Source of the DNA: Bacteroidales bacterium
Lineage (GTDB): Bacteria > Bacteroidota > Bacteroidia > Bacteroidales > P3
Length of the DNA: 46,220 nt
Direction of reading: 5' to 3'
Assembly (NCBI GenBank): GCA_024400545.1
Contig: JAKSMO010000015.1
Coordinates: forward strand, 1-46,220
Below, piece after piece: positions 2,824-12,051 of the stretch. Position numbers and translations under genes: made by a program. The stretch's first letter is position 1, and each line of letters opens with the position of its first letter. The notes beneath the pieces are model-generated. The model saw only the letters and a list, made by a program, of their open reading frames with translations, made no database searches and was not told the DNA's origin.

Positions 2824-4146
<1,323 letters not shown>

Positions 4147-4168
4147 CATTCCTTTTTGAATAATGTAT

Positions 4169-4198
4169 AAAGGGCATTCCGCATGGAATGCCCTTTTT
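4169..4198 (+). terminator. Terminator after eno
   Basis: A perfect 12-bp stem (AAAGGGCATTCC at 4169-4180, GGAATGCCCTTT at 4185-4196) closed by a GCAT tetraloop and followed by more T residues. Confidence 0.9.
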
Positions 4199-4245
4199 GT
4201 ATGATGGCAAGCTATTCATAGGGGCTTGCCTGCTTGTTTGATAAT

Positions 4246-6732
4246 CTAATTTGTCTCTTCTTTAGCGGACTCCTTTCTGATAAAATCGTAAAAGTTTTTC
4301 CTTGTCAGAGTCACGCCTTTTGCAGCATTTTGGTTAATGCCGTAATTAAAGGGTTTGTCTAATTGTTTGTATTCTTCTATTTCCAATACTATGCGGAACG
4401 GTTTGTCATAGCCATCATAGGTGTCGGTTTTGCCTTTGGCCAAGTTTTTCTTTTGCGTGACTTTCAGCACTGTTGACATATCTGCCACCTTCGCCTCTTT
4501 CACCTTATAGTAGCCAGCCACTAAATGATCATTTACTGGGGCCAAATATTTCACCTTCTTAAAGTCAATGCCGGCCAACACTGTTGCGTATCCCGATACA
4601 AACTTTGTAGCTGTACCAGCCAATATTTCGTCGGCAATGTTCACGTGAGTGTCAATAGATGATAGCAAGTATTGTCCGCTGCTGGATGCCTCATCGGCAT
4701 AAACCAAACCTCTTTGCGGTACACTCTCGCCCACATGGGCAAACGTGCTTTCTTTCTTCAGCAGCACTTCTTCTAGGTGTTCCCACAGTTGCGGGCACTC
4801 CACATCTCGCCCTTGTTCGTCATATCCGCCATCCTTAGGTAGCAATGGCAGTGCGCCGATATTCACCTTCTCAATACTCTTATAAAAATAGCGGTCTTTG
4901 ATATGTTTGTCGTCACCTCTACCAGGGAATAGAATATAACCGCCGATAATCTCCTTGCTCTCGGGACGGTCCTCCTTATTCATGCCATAATAAATAGCAT
5001 CGCGGTAGCGGTGCATCTGGTTGATGGCATCGCTAGGCGGATAGTCTGCACCTTGCAACTTATCATTCTCAGCCAACCCCATATTCTCTTCATCCACGAT
5101 GGCGTTCATCTCCTCAACATCTTGTTCTTCCAATTCATTGTCCAGTTTCTTATCACTCCACACCCTGTATTTGGCGTCATACAGATAAGTCAACATGATG
5201 TCAGCTTGATGTATATTCATCACAATATCGGGTCTTTGTTCGGTGGTCAGCGTGTGAATCTTGAAATCATCAGGATTTTTACGGTTGAATACATGCTGGT
5301 AATGCAGTGTCACCACATCGCCCTTATGCCGCAGCAAATCATCCTTGTGGGCAAAACTCTCAGGCACATCCACCTCATTCGGGTTGGGATAGCGGAACTT
5401 TACGTGGTAGTCATCCTTATTCTTCTTATCGTAATGAATCAGTGGGCCGTTAGGCTCTGCAATCAGGTTGCCATAATCCGAGTCTGGTTTCTCGGGGTCG
5501 AAGCCTAAAAGATTGCGAACCATTCGTTTCATCTTGATGAAACACCACAGCTCATATATTTCCCATATCTGCAATGTGCCGATATTCGACAGGCCGTTGA
5601 AGAAATCGATGCCTCTCTTCAGTTTTAGCCACGACTTATACACCTGCTGATATCCCATTCCATTCTGCAATACCAGGCTCTCGTGGGTCAGTCCCTCAAA
5701 TCTTCCCACGTTCTTGAAGAATGGATGTTTCTGCAACCGCTGTATCTTGTGCTGATAGCCTTGCCATTCGGTTCGGTAAGTTTCCGACACATCCTTATTG
5801 CCATTCAGCAGTTTGTCAAACACTTCTGCCAGCTTTCCTCCGATGCTCTCCAGCGTATATTTCACAAAGCGGTTCTCCATAGTGTCCACCGTGTTGTCGT
5901 ATTCCTTGTGGCCGAAATAGTGGCTTTCGGCCTCGCCGCGATATTTGGCTTCCATATATTCCTCCTCCATGGCCGCGGTCCAATGACTTATGCGGTCGGC
6001 TTTGGAATATAGCATCTTGGTCTTCACCTTCGAGAATGGCGATTTGATGACATAGTCCACATATTTCAGATAGGTCTTTGCCACCTGTTGGAAAATCTGC
6101 ATCCAGATTTCCAGTCCCTTCTCCTTGCCTCGGTCAACCTGTTGGAAAGTCGTTGATAGATAGTCAAACACCAGCCCTTCGAACTCTTGGTTCACATCTC
6201 GCAATATGCGCTGATAGTCGTGCTTGGTGTCCAGTTTGGGCGACACCACATCAAAGGCCACAAAAGCACGCTTCTCCCTTCCGTCCTTCTTGTAGCAGAA
6301 CTCCAGTCTGAAAAACCCTGGCTTGTTCACAAAGTCCATTGTTCCTTCCAGGCTCATTTCGCTGGGGTCAGCCTCATGGTCGGGGAAGAAAGCGCGTTCC
6401 ACCTCCTTGTTGATATGGATTATCTTGGGGGAGGAAGAAGGGTCAACTCCATGAAACTTGATTTTGATGTTGTACTTGTTGGTCTCAAACACCACGGGGC
6501 GGTGCAACCTGCTGGCATCCAACTTCTCGGTCGAATCGAGCAGATAGATGTCGCTTTCGCTGCCTTCGTAGTGGCAATAAGCCTCTGGGTCGCTACCATC
6601 TTCCACCATTTGGTTGCGATAACGTATGCGGCCTTTGAAGTTTTTCCAAGCATAGTCAATACTGTCGGTCCTCACCAACACCTCATAGTCGCCACTGCGA
6701 CTCACATATTTCAACACCAACAGCTGATTCAT
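4246..6732 (-). CDS. DUF2357/McrC-like PD-(D/E)XK restriction nuclease
   Basis: An 828-aa protein, last gene of the cassette that begins at 10448. The central region (about residues 200-400, ending in the helix IWEIYELWCFIKMKRMV) resembles the DUF2357/DUF524 proteins that replace McrC in McrBC-like restriction systems. The nuclease motif is clear: RPDIVM (P501-D502) followed by LYDAKYRV (D519-x-K521), a standard PD-(D/E)XK pair, and then the QMHRYRDAIYYG helix at about 572-583 that usually follows it. By family analogy it would cut foreign, probably modified, DNA once loaded by the McrB-like motor. Residues from about 690 on look like an additional C-terminal domain that I cannot assign; its LVAGYYKVKEA stretch recalls modified-base readers, but this is a guess. 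The start is 5 nt after the preceding stop. Confidence 0.8.
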   Translation of the reverse strand: MNQLLVLKYVSRSGDYEVLVRTDSIDYAWKNFKGRIRYRNQMVEDGSDPEAYCHYEGSESDIYLLDSTEKLDASRLHRPVVFETNKYNIKIKFHGVDPSSSPKIIHINKEVERAFFPDHEADPSEMSLEGTMDFVNKPGFFRLEFCYKKDGREKRAFVAFDVVSPKLDTKHDYQRILRDVNQEFEGLVFDYLSTTFQQVDRGKEKGLEIWMQIFQQVAKTYLKYVDYVIKSPFSKVKTKMLYSKADRISHWTAAMEEEYMEAKYRGEAESHYFGHKEYDNTVDTMENRFVKYTLESIGGKLAEVFDKLLNGNKDVSETYRTEWQGYQHKIQRLQKHPFFKNVGRFEGLTHESLVLQNGMGYQQVYKSWLKLKRGIDFFNGLSNIGTLQIWEIYELWCFIKMKRMVRNLLGFDPEKPDSDYGNLIAEPNGPLIHYDKKNKDDYHVKFRYPNPNEVDVPESFAHKDDLLRHKGDVVTLHYQHVFNRKNPDDFKIHTLTTEQRPDIVMNIHQADIMLTYLYDAKYRVWSDKKLDNELEEQDVEEMNAIVDEENMGLAENDKLQGADYPPSDAINQMHRYRDAIYYGMNKEDRPESKEIIGGYILFPGRGDDKHIKDRYFYKSIEKVNIGALPLLPKDGGYDEQGRDVECPQLWEHLEEVLLKKESTFAHVGESVPQRGLVYADEASSSGQYLLSSIDTHVNIADEILAGTATKFVSGYATVLAGIDFKKVKYLAPVNDHLVAGYYKVKEAKVADMSTVLKVTQKKNLAKGKTDTYDGYDKPFRIVLEIEEYKQLDKPFNYGINQNAAKGVTLTRKNFYDFIRKESAKEETN

Positions 6733-6737
6733 TCTGC

Positions 6738-7229
6738 TTATTCTAATATTAAGATTTTCTTTGGAAATGCAATCCCATTTGAGGCCAGTAATCTCCGGAT
6801 AGAGGCGTTAGGTAGAAAATGCACTCCATTGGTTGCAACCCAGATAAAAGCAGGGTTGCTTTTGGGCAAAGTGTCAATATTGGGTTTGGGTGCGGATGAT
6901 TTCAACCATTCTCCCAAGGCACGACGTTTTTTAATAATAGTATTAATTTCACTAGTTTCTGCTTTGTGGACTTCAACAAAATAACACAAACTGTCATAAC
7001 CTATGGCATAGTCCCATCTAAAATCTTTTTCGTATTTCTTCTTCAAGCAAGCATCAAGGTCCACGCTTCCCTCAATCTTTCTGGGATATTTTGCGCTGAT
7101 AAGCTTAGTATGTTCTCGTTTAATGGCTTGTAGCCCCTCTTTATATCCGGTCGCCACATCGGCTGTACGAAGAACAGCCTCCTTAAATGTTAGTTTTGTT
7201 TGTGTTTTGCCTAATGTGCTCAGCCCCAT
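6738..7229 (-). CDS. Small protein of unknown family with nuclease-like residues, partner of the upstream ATPase
   Basis: A 163-aa protein that I cannot place in a named family. After a helical N-terminus (about residues 1-50) comes FRWDYAIGYDSLCYFVEVHKAETSE (about 71-95), a predicted beta-hairpin carrying Asp, Glu, His and Lys in an order that recalls a degenerate PD-(D/E)XK core (D...ExxK). A helix (KKRRALGEWLKS) and a further strand (AFIWVAT) follow. The ATG lies 3 nt after the stop of the ATPase gene, with a purine-rich stretch (GGGGGAATGAGAA) inside the end of that gene, so translation is probably coupled and the two proteins probably work together. Nuclease activity is inference only. 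Confidence 0.6.
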   Translation of the reverse strand: MGLSTLGKTQTKLTFKEAVLRTADVATGYKEGLQAIKREHTKLISAKYPRKIEGSVDLDACLKKKYEKDFRWDYAIGYDSLCYFVEVHKAETSEINTIIKKRRALGEWLKSSAPKPNIDTLPKSNPAFIWVATNGVHFLPNASIRRLLASNGIAFPKKILILE

Positions 7230-7232
7230 TTC

Positions 7233-8414
7233 TCATTCCCCCTCAGCGCAATAATCAATATCGTCATCTTCATAAAATTGCGACACCACATTGCCTGCCT
7301 CTGTGGCAAACGTGGTCAGCCCTCCCCACTCACTAATGTCAGTATCCAGGCTGTCAGGCTCCAACGATGAAATGTCTTTTGATATCACACCACCATTTTC
7401 GCGTGAGAAGTAATATGTCTTAATCGTCTTATTGAAAATACCGCGTAGCCATGCCGCATTATCTTCTGAGCGATCAAACAGCCTCATTAATCCCAATTCT
7501 TTATTGAGCCGACACGATTCTTTGATATAGTTGAATGCCCAGGCAAATTCAAGTGGAATTGACGAATGGGTACTTATCACAACCTTATATCCCGATTGAA
7601 TCAGCTCCAATATTTGCATCAATATTGCTTTAATGGCTTGTGGGTGAAGTCCCATCTCAGGCTCTTCAAGAATCACATATTCGTATTCTTCTTTTTTGAT
7701 TACCTTTGTTGGTGGACCTGATAAGCAGTAAAAACCCATCAGTAGAGGCATGAATTCTTTCTGCCCAGCACTCCATGTCATAAATGGCATGTCTAAGCCA
7801 TCAATTTTCAGCTTCATTTTTCTTTGAATGGATTGGGTGTCCATCACCACCTGCGCTCCATGGAAGATGGTTTTATCGAATGATTGTCGTTGAAATTTTT
7901 TCAGTCTAGTGCTAATTGGAAATAATACATCATTACCATATCCAAAGCCATTTGCCATGAACAATCTCACGGTTTCGCTAAACTGTCGTAGAACATAAGG
8001 ACATGATGGGTCGTACTCGGTGAAAGATCGCGGTCTTCCTTCCGACATACTTAATATTCTTTGGGCAGGTATATAAAAGATTTTTTCTTTTATTTCATTG
8101 TTGAGATTTTCAATGGGCGTTACTTTGGGATATTTCCGTTCGCCGTCAATGGTGATACGTGAATTATCTTTCCACAGTTCCGAAAGCCCTTCCCCGAAAT
8201 AAATATCCAAGAGGTTCTTTTGGTTTTTTCTATTGAGAATATAATTGAATTTTAGGAGATTATGCACTATGGCGTCCTTATCCTCCATTAGCTTTGCCAG
8301 CTCTAAGAAAAGGCTTTTCCCTGATGCTTGGGCACCGACCAATATGGTCAGGTCTCCAAACTCAACATCAACATGTCTGATTGGGCCAAAGTTATCTACT
8401 ACAATATTTTTCAT
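7233..8414 (-). CDS. RecF/OLD-like AAA (ABC-type) ATPase, 393 aa
   Basis: An ABC-type ATPase of the SMC/RecF/OLD group without a coiled-coil insertion. Walker A is GAQASGKS (residues 27-34), the signature loop is WSAGQKE (214-220), Walker B is VILEEPEMGLHP (247-258), and the switch histidine lies in STHS (281-284). Such single-headed ATPases act as sensors or motors in defence systems such as Gabija, Septu, PARIS and OLD, always paired with an effector. Here the likely effector is the adjacent 163-aa protein. No TOPRIM or HNH domain is visible in the C-terminal 100 residues. It sits 60 nt downstream of the McrB-like gene. Confidence 0.85.
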   Translation of the reverse strand: MKNIVVDNFGPIRHVDVEFGDLTILVGAQASGKSLFLELAKLMEDKDAIVHNLLKFNYILNRKNQKNLLDIYFGEGLSELWKDNSRITIDGERKYPKVTPIENLNNEIKEKIFYIPAQRILSMSEGRPRSFTEYDPSCPYVLRQFSETVRLFMANGFGYGNDVLFPISTRLKKFQRQSFDKTIFHGAQVVMDTQSIQRKMKLKIDGLDMPFMTWSAGQKEFMPLLMGFYCLSGPPTKVIKKEEYEYVILEEPEMGLHPQAIKAILMQILELIQSGYKVVISTHSSIPLEFAWAFNYIKESCRLNKELGLMRLFDRSEDNAAWLRGIFNKTIKTYYFSRENGGVISKDISSLEPDSLDTDISEWGGLTTFATEAGNVVSQFYEDDDIDYCAEGE

Positions 8415-8474
8415 GTCTCAGATATTTTGCTATTACTAACGTGGCATTGCTGCATTTATTGCCCACACTCTCCT

Positions 8475-10448
8475 TTACGACCAGAAGCGGGTGAAACCGG
8501 TGCCGCTTAGGCGGTCTGTCATCTCTTGCAGTTTGATTTTTAGGGCAGAGTCGTCTGCGCCGGGCAGTGCTTTTCTGAGTTTCTCCAGCTTGTTGTCGCC
8601 TTTGGGGCAGAGCAGGTCCTCGTCGCCCTCTATGCGGGGCAGCACCTTCATCAGGGCTATGTCGGCCAGGGCTGTGTCGGCCCATTCTTGAAGGGTCTTC
8701 TCTTCGGCGGTGTCTTGGTCTAGTAGGGTGGCCAGGTAAACCACCAGCTCATTCAGCACGCGGTACGACACCTCGAAGGGTGTTCCCTTCAACGCCTCAT
8801 TGATGGCATACAGCTTCTTGGGCAGCGAGTCGGCCACCTCTTCGCCTGCGCTGTCGCGGCCGGTGATGAAGGCTGCGGCGTCGGCATTGCCCTTCACTCG
8901 GGGGCATTGCTCCAGCACCTCGTCGGCTGTCACATATCTGGGTTTCAGCTGGTCTGCGGTCATCAGCTCATTGTCGGGCTGGGTGGGGTAGTCCAGACGT
9001 TTAGCGCCGCCGAACATATCCTCCAGTTTGCCGCCGTTCATCTCTATGGTGAATGCGCGGTCTATCACCTTGCGGCTGAACTTCTTGGTGGTCTCGTCCA
9101 TGTTCACCGTGCCCACTACGAACACATTGTCGGGCAAGGTCAGGCCTTTCTCTCTGAGCGAGTGGCTTGCATTGTCTTCTGCCGTGGGGGTGTGGGTATG
9201 ATCGGTATTGTCTGCATTGTCAACAATGCCGGCAAAGAAATGCTCATACCAGTCTCGGTCTGAGGGGTTTGGGTTCTCCACGCATTTCTTTCCGTCCTTT
9301 ATTGTGTAGATTTCTTGGAAATACTGCTTGTCCACCAACGCCCCGGTCACCACCTTGCGGCCATGGTCTTCGCCTGTCCATTTGCGGGTTTCGAGCACAC
9401 TCAGGAACTCTGCAAAATACTCTTCCACATGGGCCAGGTTCATCTCGTCCAGGCACACAAAGAAAGGCACATGGGGGTGCTGCAAGGCCTTGATGAGGAA
9501 CTGCACAAACTTAGTGTAGTTATATTTTTGGCTGATATTGCTGTAGTAGCCCAGCAACTCGGAGCTGTCGTGCCAGTTCGGCTTCACCTCAATCATGCAG
9601 TAATTGCCAGGCACCGTGGGGTCTTGCCGCAGATACGAGGGACAAGTGCTGAAAGCCATCTCCCTCACCCAACGGCTCTTACCTGTTCCGCTGATACCGG
9701 CCAACAACAAGAACGGTTTTGTGTGAAGGGCTTGGAGGAAGGGCGTATGTGTCTGGCCACTAAATGTAATTGACTTAATAATCGTTGAAGGACTAGTAGT
9801 TAGGGGAATGCCCGGCAAATGCATCATTTCGGGATGTTCGACAAAGTAGTCGTACATCTTATATGCGTGACCCAATTCTTGAGGTCTGAATTTTACCTCG
9901 TCAGAAGGAAATCTTTTTTTAGCAGCATTGATGATGTCGGATCCCGCTAGATTCAGCTCTTTGACTCGACTACCGTATGTGACCATGAAAATGGAAGCGC
10001 CAGGAGTGCTCAGCTCGACTGCCAGATCTCGATAGAACTTCACCAAGTCATCTATTGTATAGTTTTGCATCTTTATTAATGAATTATCTATTTCACGGAG
10101 TTCCCAATAAAAATCTTTATCAGTTTTGTAAAATCCAACAGTGGCATGGAAATTCTTCTTCAATTCAACATCATCTTCTCCTTTGGAATTCTTCACGTTA
10201 TCAAATCCGTAAGAATATTTTGACTTAATTGCTTTTATTAGTTCGGCATTGATTAATAGTCGATATTCCTCGTTTTTAGTTCCTCCGGAAAACGTTGCCT
10301 CGTATTGTTTTCCCTCAAAAATAATAGTAATTGTAGTCTCTTCTTTAAGTGTAGTAGTTAATCTGTCTCGTTCCTTTTTGTTGATGTACAAGTTGCCATA
10401 TCTAAGAAGGCTTTTGTCGACCTTATGTTTGAAAATCAAATCGCCCAT
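8475..10448 (-). CDS. McrB-like AAA+ motor protein of a type IV-like restriction system
   Basis: A 657-aa protein, first gene of the cassette. Walker A is GISGTGKS (residues 251-258). Walker B is VCLDEMNLA (331-339) with the downstream EFLSVLETR typical of the McrB family. Sensor 1 and arginine-finger region is VGTVNMDETTKKFSRKVIDRAF (445-466). McrB proteins hydrolyse GTP, some relatives ATP, to translocate DNA and drive the paired nuclease. The N-terminal 240 residues form one or two extra domains that should provide target recognition; residues 1-75 look all-beta (LRYGNLYINKKERDRL..., ITIIFEGKQYEATFSGG), but I cannot name the fold. The partner nuclease is probably the DUF2357 protein three genes downstream. 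Confidence 0.85.
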   Translation of the reverse strand: MGDLIFKHKVDKSLLRYGNLYINKKERDRLTTTLKEETTITIIFEGKQYEATFSGGTKNEEYRLLINAELIKAIKSKYSYGFDNVKNSKGEDDVELKKNFHATVGFYKTDKDFYWELREIDNSLIKMQNYTIDDLVKFYRDLAVELSTPGASIFMVTYGSRVKELNLAGSDIINAAKKRFPSDEVKFRPQELGHAYKMYDYFVEHPEMMHLPGIPLTTSPSTIIKSITFSGQTHTPFLQALHTKPFLLLAGISGTGKSRWVREMAFSTCPSYLRQDPTVPGNYCMIEVKPNWHDSSELLGYYSNISQKYNYTKFVQFLIKALQHPHVPFFVCLDEMNLAHVEEYFAEFLSVLETRKWTGEDHGRKVVTGALVDKQYFQEIYTIKDGKKCVENPNPSDRDWYEHFFAGIVDNADNTDHTHTPTAEDNASHSLREKGLTLPDNVFVVGTVNMDETTKKFSRKVIDRAFTIEMNGGKLEDMFGGAKRLDYPTQPDNELMTADQLKPRYVTADEVLEQCPRVKGNADAAAFITGRDSAGEEVADSLPKKLYAINEALKGTPFEVSYRVLNELVVYLATLLDQDTAEEKTLQEWADTALADIALMKVLPRIEGDEDLLCPKGDNKLEKLRKALPGADDSALKIKLQEMTDRLSGTGFTRFWS

Positions 10449-10591
10449 ATCGATTTATTAAAAATAGTTAGTCATCAAATAATACTAATCGTCGGTCATT
10501 TAAATTAATAAAAATACATAATTTTCCTTGATACCTGCAAATAGGTGGAATTCTTTTATTTTCATAAAAGCACGTATTATATATATAAATG

Positions 10592-10599
10592 CAAATTTA
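10592..10599 (-). promoter_or_regulatory. Possible -7 element for the McrB-like cassette
   Basis: On the minus strand these bases read TAAATTTG, fitting TAnnTTTG. No TTTG is found 19-21 nt upstream, and the leader to the ATG would be about 140 nt, so this is weak. The surrounding 10450-10700 stretch is very AT-rich with reiterated TTGCA-like motifs and no convincing gene. Confidence 0.25.
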
Positions 10600-10760
10600 C
10601 GCAATTTTTTGCAATTAATGAAAAATAATGACAAGTTGTTGCACTTTTTTGCTTTTAATCGCATGATTTCAATTTTGTTATCTATTGCAATTGTACTCGA
10701 TGTCGCTCTCCTTCTCCGAATATGTCTGCCAGTGATAGAGCTCTACTCTCATCGCGCTCC

Positions 10761-10858
10761 CGCTGATTCTATGGTCATTCTACGGTTATCTTACGGTAAT
10801 GGGGCGGTATGAGGGAGTGGGGCGGAACCGTAGGATAACCGTAGGATGTGGGTAGGAT
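10761..10858. repeat. Inverted 11-bp-period repeat array (copy A)
   Basis: Left half: three 11-bp units at 10770-10802 (TATGGTCATTC, TACGGTTATCT, TACGGTAATGG). Right half: three units of the opposite sense at 10826-10858 (AACCGTAGGAT twice, then GTGGGTAGGAT). The halves pair as a 22-bp stem (10776-10797 with 10827-10848) whose only two mismatches are G-T. Bases 10761-10786 match 39022-39047 at 24 of 26 positions, so this is a dispersed element. Confidence 0.75.
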
Positions 10859-10955
10859 GGGTGGAGCTTGGGATTTGGAATGGATTTTGGGGTGAGTCTG
10901 CATGGTTTGTGCGTGGGCGATGCGGAAAAATCGTTCGGGATTCTGGATTTTGTTG

Positions 10956-10963
10956 TATCTTTG
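10956..10963 (+). promoter_or_regulatory. -7 promoter element for the gene at 11005
   Basis: TATCTTTG fits the Bacteroidota -7 consensus and lies 41 nt before the ATG. There is no good TTTG at -33; TTCG at 10934 is the nearest. Confidence 0.55.
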
Positions 10964-11004
10964 CATGTTTGGAGGTGGAAATAAAACTGTGTAATTATTG
11001 ACTT

Positions 11005-12051
11005 ATGAGCATGATTGATAAAGCTTTGGATGTTTGCAGGCTGCTGGCGGATTATGAGTTGGATTACGACCAGCTGGAACTGGAATTTGATGTGGAAAAC
11101 CAACAATCGATTCTGGATTCTATAGGTGAGGAGTCTATTTTCCCGGTTTCGCAGCATAGGGTGTGGCATTCGATGTTGGGCAACCGGTATGTGGTGGAAG
11201 ATGTGGTGACCAAGGATTCGGACGGGAATTACCGGATACGGCATATTCTGCATGCTTTGATTGACTCGCCGGAAGGCACTACGGCATGTTCGTTTATGCA
11301 GCGTCAGCCGGAAGTCGATGCGTCAGCGCCGGAAGGCTCGTCGGCCATGCTGTTGGTGTATTCTCCGTCGGTGTTGCTCGGCTATTGCCATTATTGTGGG
11401 CGGGCGCTGGATGTGAATGCCGTGGCCTCGGTGGTGGGTTCGGCCGTGGGACCGCAGATGACCTATTGGATTGATGATGCTGGCGAGCATGTCTGTCTGC
11501 AGTGCCAAGGTGGCTATCTGCTGGGATCGGTGCGGATGGACGGGCCTATGGTGCTGACATTCACTGCCTTTATGCCCGAGACCAGAGTGGCTATGCCACG
11601 TACCTTGTGGCCGGCCGAGGTGGTGCCGTTTGCCGACCTGTTGGGTCGCGTGATGAGCCCCAAAGGTATGCAAGGCAAAGTGCTGCGTGCCGATAAAAAT
11701 GAGACGCTGGAGGCCATTCTGGCATTTGTGCGTCCGTTTGCAAGCTTGAAAACCCGCCGAGTGAAACGCAGTTGGGAAAACCTGTGGGTGTGGCTGCTCG
11801 ATTTTCAGCCAGTGTGGAACTATGTGGCCAAACCTTTGGGTGGCAAACCGTTCAATGCCAACAGCATTGCCCATATCCTGTCGCTGATGAATGAGGAGGG
11901 AGTTGTGGAGCTGGGAGTGAAGAGCCATATTGCCAAGTTGCAGCCCGAGGCCAACGAGAATTTCCGCACCAATCTCTCCTCGCCCCCTTCAGATCGGGTG
12001 CGCGGCGTTGTAAGGGGCTATTTAGAAAAGGTTGTAAAAAGTCGACTGTAA
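11005..12051 (+). CDS. Uncharacterised protein with a CxxC...CxxC zinc-type motif
   Basis: A 348-aa protein that I do not recognise. It has no signal peptide and no membrane segment, so it should be cytoplasmic. Two CxxC pairs, CHYC (residues 128-131) and CLQC (164-167), lie 32 residues apart and probably bind one zinc. The C-terminal half (about 230-348) looks helical, including a Trp-rich stretch (RSWENLWVWLLDFQPVWNY). The C-terminal region could be DNA-binding, but this is speculation. It has its own -7 element, and is followed by a 13-bp inverted repeat and then the promoter of the next gene, so it is probably monocistronic. Confidence 0.6.
   Translation: MSMIDKALDVCRLLADYELDYDQLELEFDVENQQSILDSIGEESIFPVSQHRVWHSMLGNRYVVEDVVTKDSDGNYRIRHILHALIDSPEGTTACSFMQRQPEVDASAPEGSSAMLLVYSPSVLLGYCHYCGRALDVNAVASVVGSAVGPQMTYWIDDAGEHVCLQCQGGYLLGSVRMDGPMVLTFTAFMPETRVAMPRTLWPAEVVPFADLLGRVMSPKGMQGKVLRADKNETLEAILAFVRPFASLKTRRVKRSWENLWVWLLDFQPVWNYVAKPLGGKPFNANSIAHILSLMNEEGVVELGVKSHIAKLQPEANENFRTNLSSPPSDRVRGVVRGYLEKVVKSRL

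Follow-up and report, generated by a model that had tools for sequence, protein, structure and literature searches.

A probable PDC-M56 back-up defence module nested between the motor and nuclease genes of an McrBC operon in a Bacteroidales bacterium

Analysis of a stretch of DNA of 46,220 nucleotides (nt) from a Bacteroidales bacterium (assembly GCA_024400545.1, contig JAKSMO010000015.1, positions 1 to 46,220; referred to here as the window) revealed an operon of four intact minus-strand genes in which two small-module genes lie between the motor and the nuclease genes of an McrBC-type restriction system. The gene order is McrB-like gene, ATPase gene, gene for a 163-amino-acid protein and DUF2357 gene, with 60, 3 and 5 nt between successive genes. 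The genes, gaps, coordinates and motifs had been described in a first-pass annotation of this DNA and were all confirmed by rereading of the sequence. Hidden Markov model (HMM) searches of all four proteins against Pfam and PADLOC also agreed with the gene identities proposed there. The operon consists of the following features.

8475..10448, minus strand: McrB-like AAA+ motor, 657 amino acids (Walker A GISGTGKS, Walker B LDEMN, NMDE of the NxD type)
8415..8474, minus strand: junction of 60 nt between the McrB gene and the ATPase gene, start of the nested pair
7233..8414, minus strand: OLD/SMC-type ABC ATPase, 393 amino acids, PADLOC PDC-M56A (Walker A GAQASGKS, signature WSAGQKE, Walker B EEPEMGLHP, STHS)
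6738..7229, minus strand: predicted PD-(D/E)XK-like nuclease, 163 amino acids, PADLOC PDC-M56B (invariant D73, E86, H88 and K101)
6733..6737, minus strand: junction of 5 nt between the nested pair and the McrC-like gene
4246..6732, minus strand: McrC-like subunit, 828 amino acids (DUF2357 at residues 130-368, PDDEXK_7 at 391-606, followed by a C-terminal region)

The McrB-like protein matched Pfam AAA_5 (E value 9.5e-06), PADLOC PDC-M26A (E value 5e-47) and, among the sequences of the Protein Data Bank (PDB), an McrB structure (E value 0.035). Its motif reads NMDE and is thus of the NxD type, and NxD-type McrB motors are given a branch of their own in the available text of PMC11090510. The McrC-like protein, with the motif PD...DAK, matched Pfam DUF2357 (E value 6.8e-36) and PDDEXK_7 (E value 3.6e-23) and, weakly, the PADLOC M26B model (E value 0.0017). 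With an Nx(x)D McrB motor and a DUF2357/PD-(D/E)XK subunit in one operon, the outer genes are, by these profile and motif matches, an NxD-type McrBC (Type IV-like) restriction operon. The arrangement is that of the McrBC NxD branch and of PADLOC PDC-M26, in which an McrB-like NxD AAA+ protein and a DUF2357-PD-(D/E)XK subunit share an operon, but in the window two extra genes separate the motor from the nuclease.

The ATPase encoded by the first of these extra genes matched AAA_15/AAA_21 in Pfam and PDC-M56A in PADLOC (E value 1.3e-152, residues 1-382 of 393). The 163-amino-acid protein, encoded directly downstream at a distance of 3 nt, matched PDC-M56B (E value 1e-44, residues 11-159 of 163). 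Judged by these matches, the inner genes are both halves of one catalogued candidate system, PADLOC PDC-M56. This system is a candidate of the PADLOC catalogue, whereas its nesting in McrBC is a new context. None of the operon proteins came near the cut-off of a family in an NCBIfam search.

Comparison of folds revealed PtuA heads, SMC and Rad50 among the closest folds to the ATPase (best 50 matches listed). AriA structures did not appear among these listed matches, an absence that carries no weight against a similarity to AriA. Alignment of the 163-amino-acid protein with its homologues (55 aligned sequences) revealed nine invariant residues common to all. D73 and E86 are invariant in 55/55, H88 fills the position of the lysine, and an invariant K101 lies on the next helix. 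In the AlphaFold2 model (pLDDT 93.4), D73 is placed just ahead of one strand, with E86 and H88 on the next. The structure matches listed for this model were mostly PD-(D/E)XK enzymes, and the M56B profile had no match among PDB sequences. The confident model suggests that the protein looks like a PD-(D/E)XK nuclease, so that "small nuclease-like", the earlier wording for this partner, is a fair description of a predicted activity.

To describe the distribution of the inner pair, genome contigs were scanned for relatives of the ATPase, and the best 80 of 357 relatives were analysed. Together with family, class, phylum, order, viral and plasmid sources, this gave 112 pair-locus rows. Apart from the window, they represent 95 distinct ATPase loci, once three loci without a called M56A (L020, L176 and L206) were set aside and 14 duplicates or near-copies were merged. 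Locus flanks extended to about 10 kb at most and were shorter on many contigs; reading frames in them were searched for M56B, McrB and DUF2357 at E <= 1e-4. M56B was present in 78 of the 80 loci fetched by the ATPase alone, 61 by gene calling and 17 more by frame search (weakest match, L114, E value 2e-6). The co-occurrence in these 80 loci, like the nine invariant residues of the 163-amino-acid protein, speaks against chance. By frame search, M56B was found in 92/95 distinct loci, the exceptions being L106, L148 and L177. McrB or DUF2357 was found by frame search of the flanks in 0/112 rows and hence at none of the 95 other distinct ATPase loci. Within the window's family, M56B was found in 12 of 190 genomes and McrB-like M26A matches in 41 of the 189 genomes searched; neither McrB nor DUF2357 was found near any of the 11 further copies of the pair in that family.

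The reciprocal collection comprised 39 McrB/DUF2357 loci from the window's family and order and from its own genome. Eight loci lacking one of the two genes were dropped, and 31 remained, with L187 and L188 included although their McrB pieces measure only 324 and 63 amino acids. The PDC-M56 pair was present in none of these 31 related loci with both genes, and in 19 of them the McrB and DUF2357 genes lie less than 250 nt apart. These results indicate that the pair is a separate, conserved and widely scattered unit, not a fixed part of McrBC. The first-pass annotation had proposed two separate defence modules in one operon, and this is supported by the 95 other ATPase loci, none of which has McrB/DUF2357 in the flanks searched. 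The survey of gene neighbourhoods that it called for gave a mixed answer: the pair does occur away from McrB-DUF2357 operons, but recurrence inside such operons was not found among the loci covered. The annotation had also named two outcomes that would count against it, absence of the pair from all related operons and a match of the four genes to one named system. The pair was absent from all 31 related operons, whereas the four genes matched two systems and not one.

Neighbour analysis of the 95 loci revealed the pair inside other restriction operons, a pattern of nesting that does not look random. In seven loci (L125, L126, L155, L160, L162, L164 and L222) it lies between hsdS (Methylase_S) and hsdM (N6_Mtase) of a type I restriction-modification (RM) system; one further small gene separates it from hsdM in L164, and in L222 the M56 ATPase gene was called only as a 162-amino-acid piece. 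In L144 the pair is positioned immediately upstream of hsdM. In L019 it is located between PglX and PglZ of a bacteriophage exclusion (BREX) operon, with M56B read by eye. Six loci had their HsdS match at gene position -1, and just two, L144 and L116, had it anywhere else (104 rows, before L222). Because HsdS is found mostly at this position, the pair is linked with the operon itself and not with a general island.

The ATPase tree comprised 81 sequences, namely those of the window, L019 and 79 of the 80 genome-contig loci; L222 was absent, and three extra OLD ATPases of an earlier tree were left out. On this tree, the eight nested rows (the window, six hsd loci and L019) need seven label changes, at least four of them forced by starred branches, and the nested label is unclustered (106/500 shuffles as low). 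Because of these seven changes, the nesting of the pair in restriction operons is not one inheritance, with gains and losses indistinguishable on the tree. The best reading is that the pair was recruited more than once into restriction operons of the type I RM, BREX and McrBC kinds. Among mobile elements, one plasmid carries both pair genes. Single-sequence searches of viral contigs revealed neither the 163-amino-acid nor the DUF2357 protein, and the 163-amino-acid protein and the ATPase were in no phage record searched. The alignment search with the ATPase yielded three viral contigs, including L177, in which M56B is missing, and L176, which ends inside the ATPase.

Two of the host operons contain further genes. 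The BREX operon of L019 (4951-19000) has BrxC, BrxL and a HipA-like gene among its core genes alongside the pair. In L222 (8785-15262), an AAA_21-RloB pair shares one hsd operon with the PDC-M56 pair.

In the window, the base composition of the nested genes differs from that of their hosts. GC content at third codon positions (GC3) is 0.41 for the ATPase gene and 0.37 for the 163-amino-acid gene. The AAA part of the McrB gene reaches 0.71 and the McrC gene 0.58, and the window averages 0.61 (standard deviation 0.10; 37 genes, operon genes included). Because the GC3 of the pair lies below that of its hosts and the window mean, a recent arrival of the pair is favoured. The region encoding McrB residues 1-220 (9774-10448) also has a low GC3 (0.39, with 0.71 in the remainder of the gene), which points to an independent exchange of this domain. 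Pfam gave no match to these residues and the PDB none that was convincing, and the neighbours examined included no relative. They are probably a swapped specificity domain.

Inspection of the 31 complete relatives marked the McrB|McrC junction as a cargo slot: inserts were present in 12, and in 11 of these the insert is toxin/defence-type cargo. The following inserts were found.

L072, L075, L080 and L197: SLFN_AlbA_2 with HATPase
L074 and L186: Fic
L082 and L200: DUF1016/YhcG, with 122-amino-acid DUF1016_N pieces in L194 and L198
L195, 8783-10884: Septu PtuA (E value 2.9e-86) and PtuB (E value 5.1e-58), in a genome of the same genus
L063, 8728-9336: gene for 202 amino acids without Pfam match, in the second McrBC of the window's own genome

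In L195 the McrB region is split by a stop into two frames, and the host McrBC of this Septu pair may therefore be broken. According to the available portion of PMC12839542, Schlafen RNases, HNH and PD-(D/E)XK nucleases and OLD-ABC pairs are auxiliary or back-up effectors of BREX loci; Fic and DUF1016 are not named among the BREX cargo in that portion. The cargo of the slot overlaps with these BREX effectors, and therefore McrBC in this bacterial group seems to be served by an overlapping set. Upstream of the McrBC of L075 (4508-6198), a different OLD-like ATPase lies beside a DUF3226 protein and is perhaps part of another ATPase-effector pair. Several McrB-DUF2357 operons of the genus (L067-L074) are preceded by C5 DNA methyltransferase-like genes, Pfam-confirmed in L067; no such gene adjoins the operon in the window.

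The general plan of the inner pair has precedents. The first-pass annotation had likened it to Septu or PARIS. The combination of an ABC ATPase with a small effector holds, but membership of either system fails on the small partner, which has no HNH, TOPRIM or DUF4435 match. PARIS (AriA-AriB) likewise combines an OLD-type ABC ATPase with a small nuclease, and AriA ranks second among the PADLOC families matched by the ATPase (E value 1.1e-21, far below M56A). The partner in the window, however, is PD-(D/E)XK-like and lacks the TOPRIM, DUF4435 or AriB match by which AriB is recognised, and PARIS was rejected. The ariAB genes are also known from inside a BREX island, that of Salmonella (available text of PMC11341690), as is the M56 pair of L019. 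For Septu (PtuA-PtuB), the PtuA fold is near the ATPase and PtuA-PtuB fills the same slot in L195, but PtuA is not the best match of the ATPase; without an HNH or PtuB match of the 163-amino-acid protein, Septu was also rejected.

RloA-RloB are accessory ATPase/nuclease genes embedded in type I hsd loci. Both they and PrrC resemble the hsd-nested M56 pairs in being accessory genes within hsd operons. Membership of RloA-RloB was rejected, as the 163-amino-acid protein had no match to RloB (PF13707), which the same library detected in L222. The closest general kind is found in BREX, where OLD-ABC ATPases with alternative TOPRIM, HNH, PD-(D/E)XK or PIN nucleases are described as back-up effectors (available portion of PMC12839542). 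The PD-(D/E)XK partners are shared with the pair studied here, but the description concerns BREX, with RM-like systems cited, whereas the host in the window is McrBC. OLD-ABC/nuclease back-ups inside restriction loci are thus already in print, and the pair itself is already catalogued by PADLOC. The name PDC-M56 was absent from the literature searched, and no description of the pair inside McrBC was recognised in the literature searched for the pair name, nested defence and McrBC with PARIS or Septu.

Taken as a whole, the arrangement is probably an NxD-type McrBC operon that carries an autonomous two-gene PDC-M56 defence module as a back-up between its motor and nuclease genes. A guard and back-up role, by analogy, is plausible because type I RM (seven loci) and BREX (one locus) operons host the pair as well, and OLD-ABC/nuclease back-ups are described there. 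Alternatively, the pair might be an independent abortive-infection system that lands downstream of any expressed gene, its placement in McrBC reflecting only transcription or shared transfer. Two counts point this way: 86/95 distinct loci are outside restriction operons according to neighbour HMMs that were built from these same loci and could miss distant restriction families, and a same-strand upstream gene lies within 100 nt in 28 of the 90 loci whose contigs include an upstream gene of at least 100 amino acids (6 of the 28 hsd-nested), LepA (L027) and AIR carboxylase (L127) being among these neighbours. Nevertheless, 8/95 loci hold the pair between two restriction core genes and are scattered on the ATPase tree, and nearly all filled McrB|McrC slots carry toxin/defence-type cargo. 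Neutral insertion would presumably seldom strike such small targets. Simple hitch-hiking is therefore considered unlikely, although it is the most serious competitor of the back-up reading.

The first-pass annotation had also offered a single four-part machine, in which the ATPase and the small nuclease would be subunits of a new McrBC variant acting as one complex. The spacing of 3 and 5 nt on a single strand would suit such a complex. It was nevertheless rejected as very improbable because the combination occurs in 0/31 related McrB-DUF2357 loci, 19 of them with closely spaced genes, and in 0/95 ATPase loci; the base composition of the pair, unlike that of its hosts, also speaks against it. 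An assembly or binning artefact joining unrelated pieces could be suspected from the draft state of the genome (estimated contamination 8.27%) and from an arrangement that is unique among those found. Four intact genes with operon-like spacing inside a 46-kb contig, and pairs that nest alike in unrelated operons, make an artefact hardly credible.

In pairs of this kind, an OLD/SMC-type ATPase acts as the sensor and controls a nuclease. If the pair in the window is a back-up, McrBC would be first to attack incoming DNA, and the pair, co-expressed from that operon, would form the second line. A dimer of the ABC ATPase would act as an ATP-gated sensor that keeps the small PD-(D/E)XK-like protein inactive. 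Upon a phage signal, the ATPase would release or activate this protein, which would then cut nucleic acid, and the infected cell would be killed or arrested. Less certainly, the pair might respond to an anti-restriction protein or to the host restriction complex being lost, by analogy with PARIS and PrrC. Both are termed RM guardians in the available text of PMC12707154, which describes the PARIS ATPase as recognising the anti-restriction protein Ocr and then releasing AriB, and PrrC, embedded in a type I locus, as firing upon inhibition of that enzyme. A broader proposal is more doubtful: that back-up effectors in general dock at the McrB|McrC junction and that the PDC-M56 pair guards McrBC, type I RM and BREX alike, firing in McrBC upon a phage inhibitor or loss of the complex. 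This is put forward tentatively and is considered rather unlikely.

For type I RM and BREX, guards such as PrrC and PARIS are already known or have been proposed. Should this portable pair also back up McrBC, its predicted trigger would be phage proteins directed against McrBC, and PDC-M56, so far only catalogued, would gain a concrete, testable function. The seven type I loci, the BREX locus and the McrBC locus are natural replicates for the host dependence of nested modules, and the McrB|McrC slot is a small hunting ground for new effectors.

The operon is flanked by eno (named by eye) on one side and by a divergent gene for 348 amino acids on the other. No minus-strand terminator-like site was called within 4100-11050. 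The counts of promoter-like sites were 16 versus 12.9 (standard deviation 3.4) in shuffles, and those of terminator-like sites 5 versus 7.3. The 348-amino-acid gene (11005-12051) belongs to no Pfam family and was present in 2/99 genomes searched, the window's own and G400; in G400 this gene and eno are on separate contigs, and hence an empty chromosomal site of the cassette was not seen. In three loci of the window's genus (L027, L028 and L029), a lepA gene (Pfam-confirmed in L027) precedes the pair, and a similar gene for 180 amino acids comes after it.
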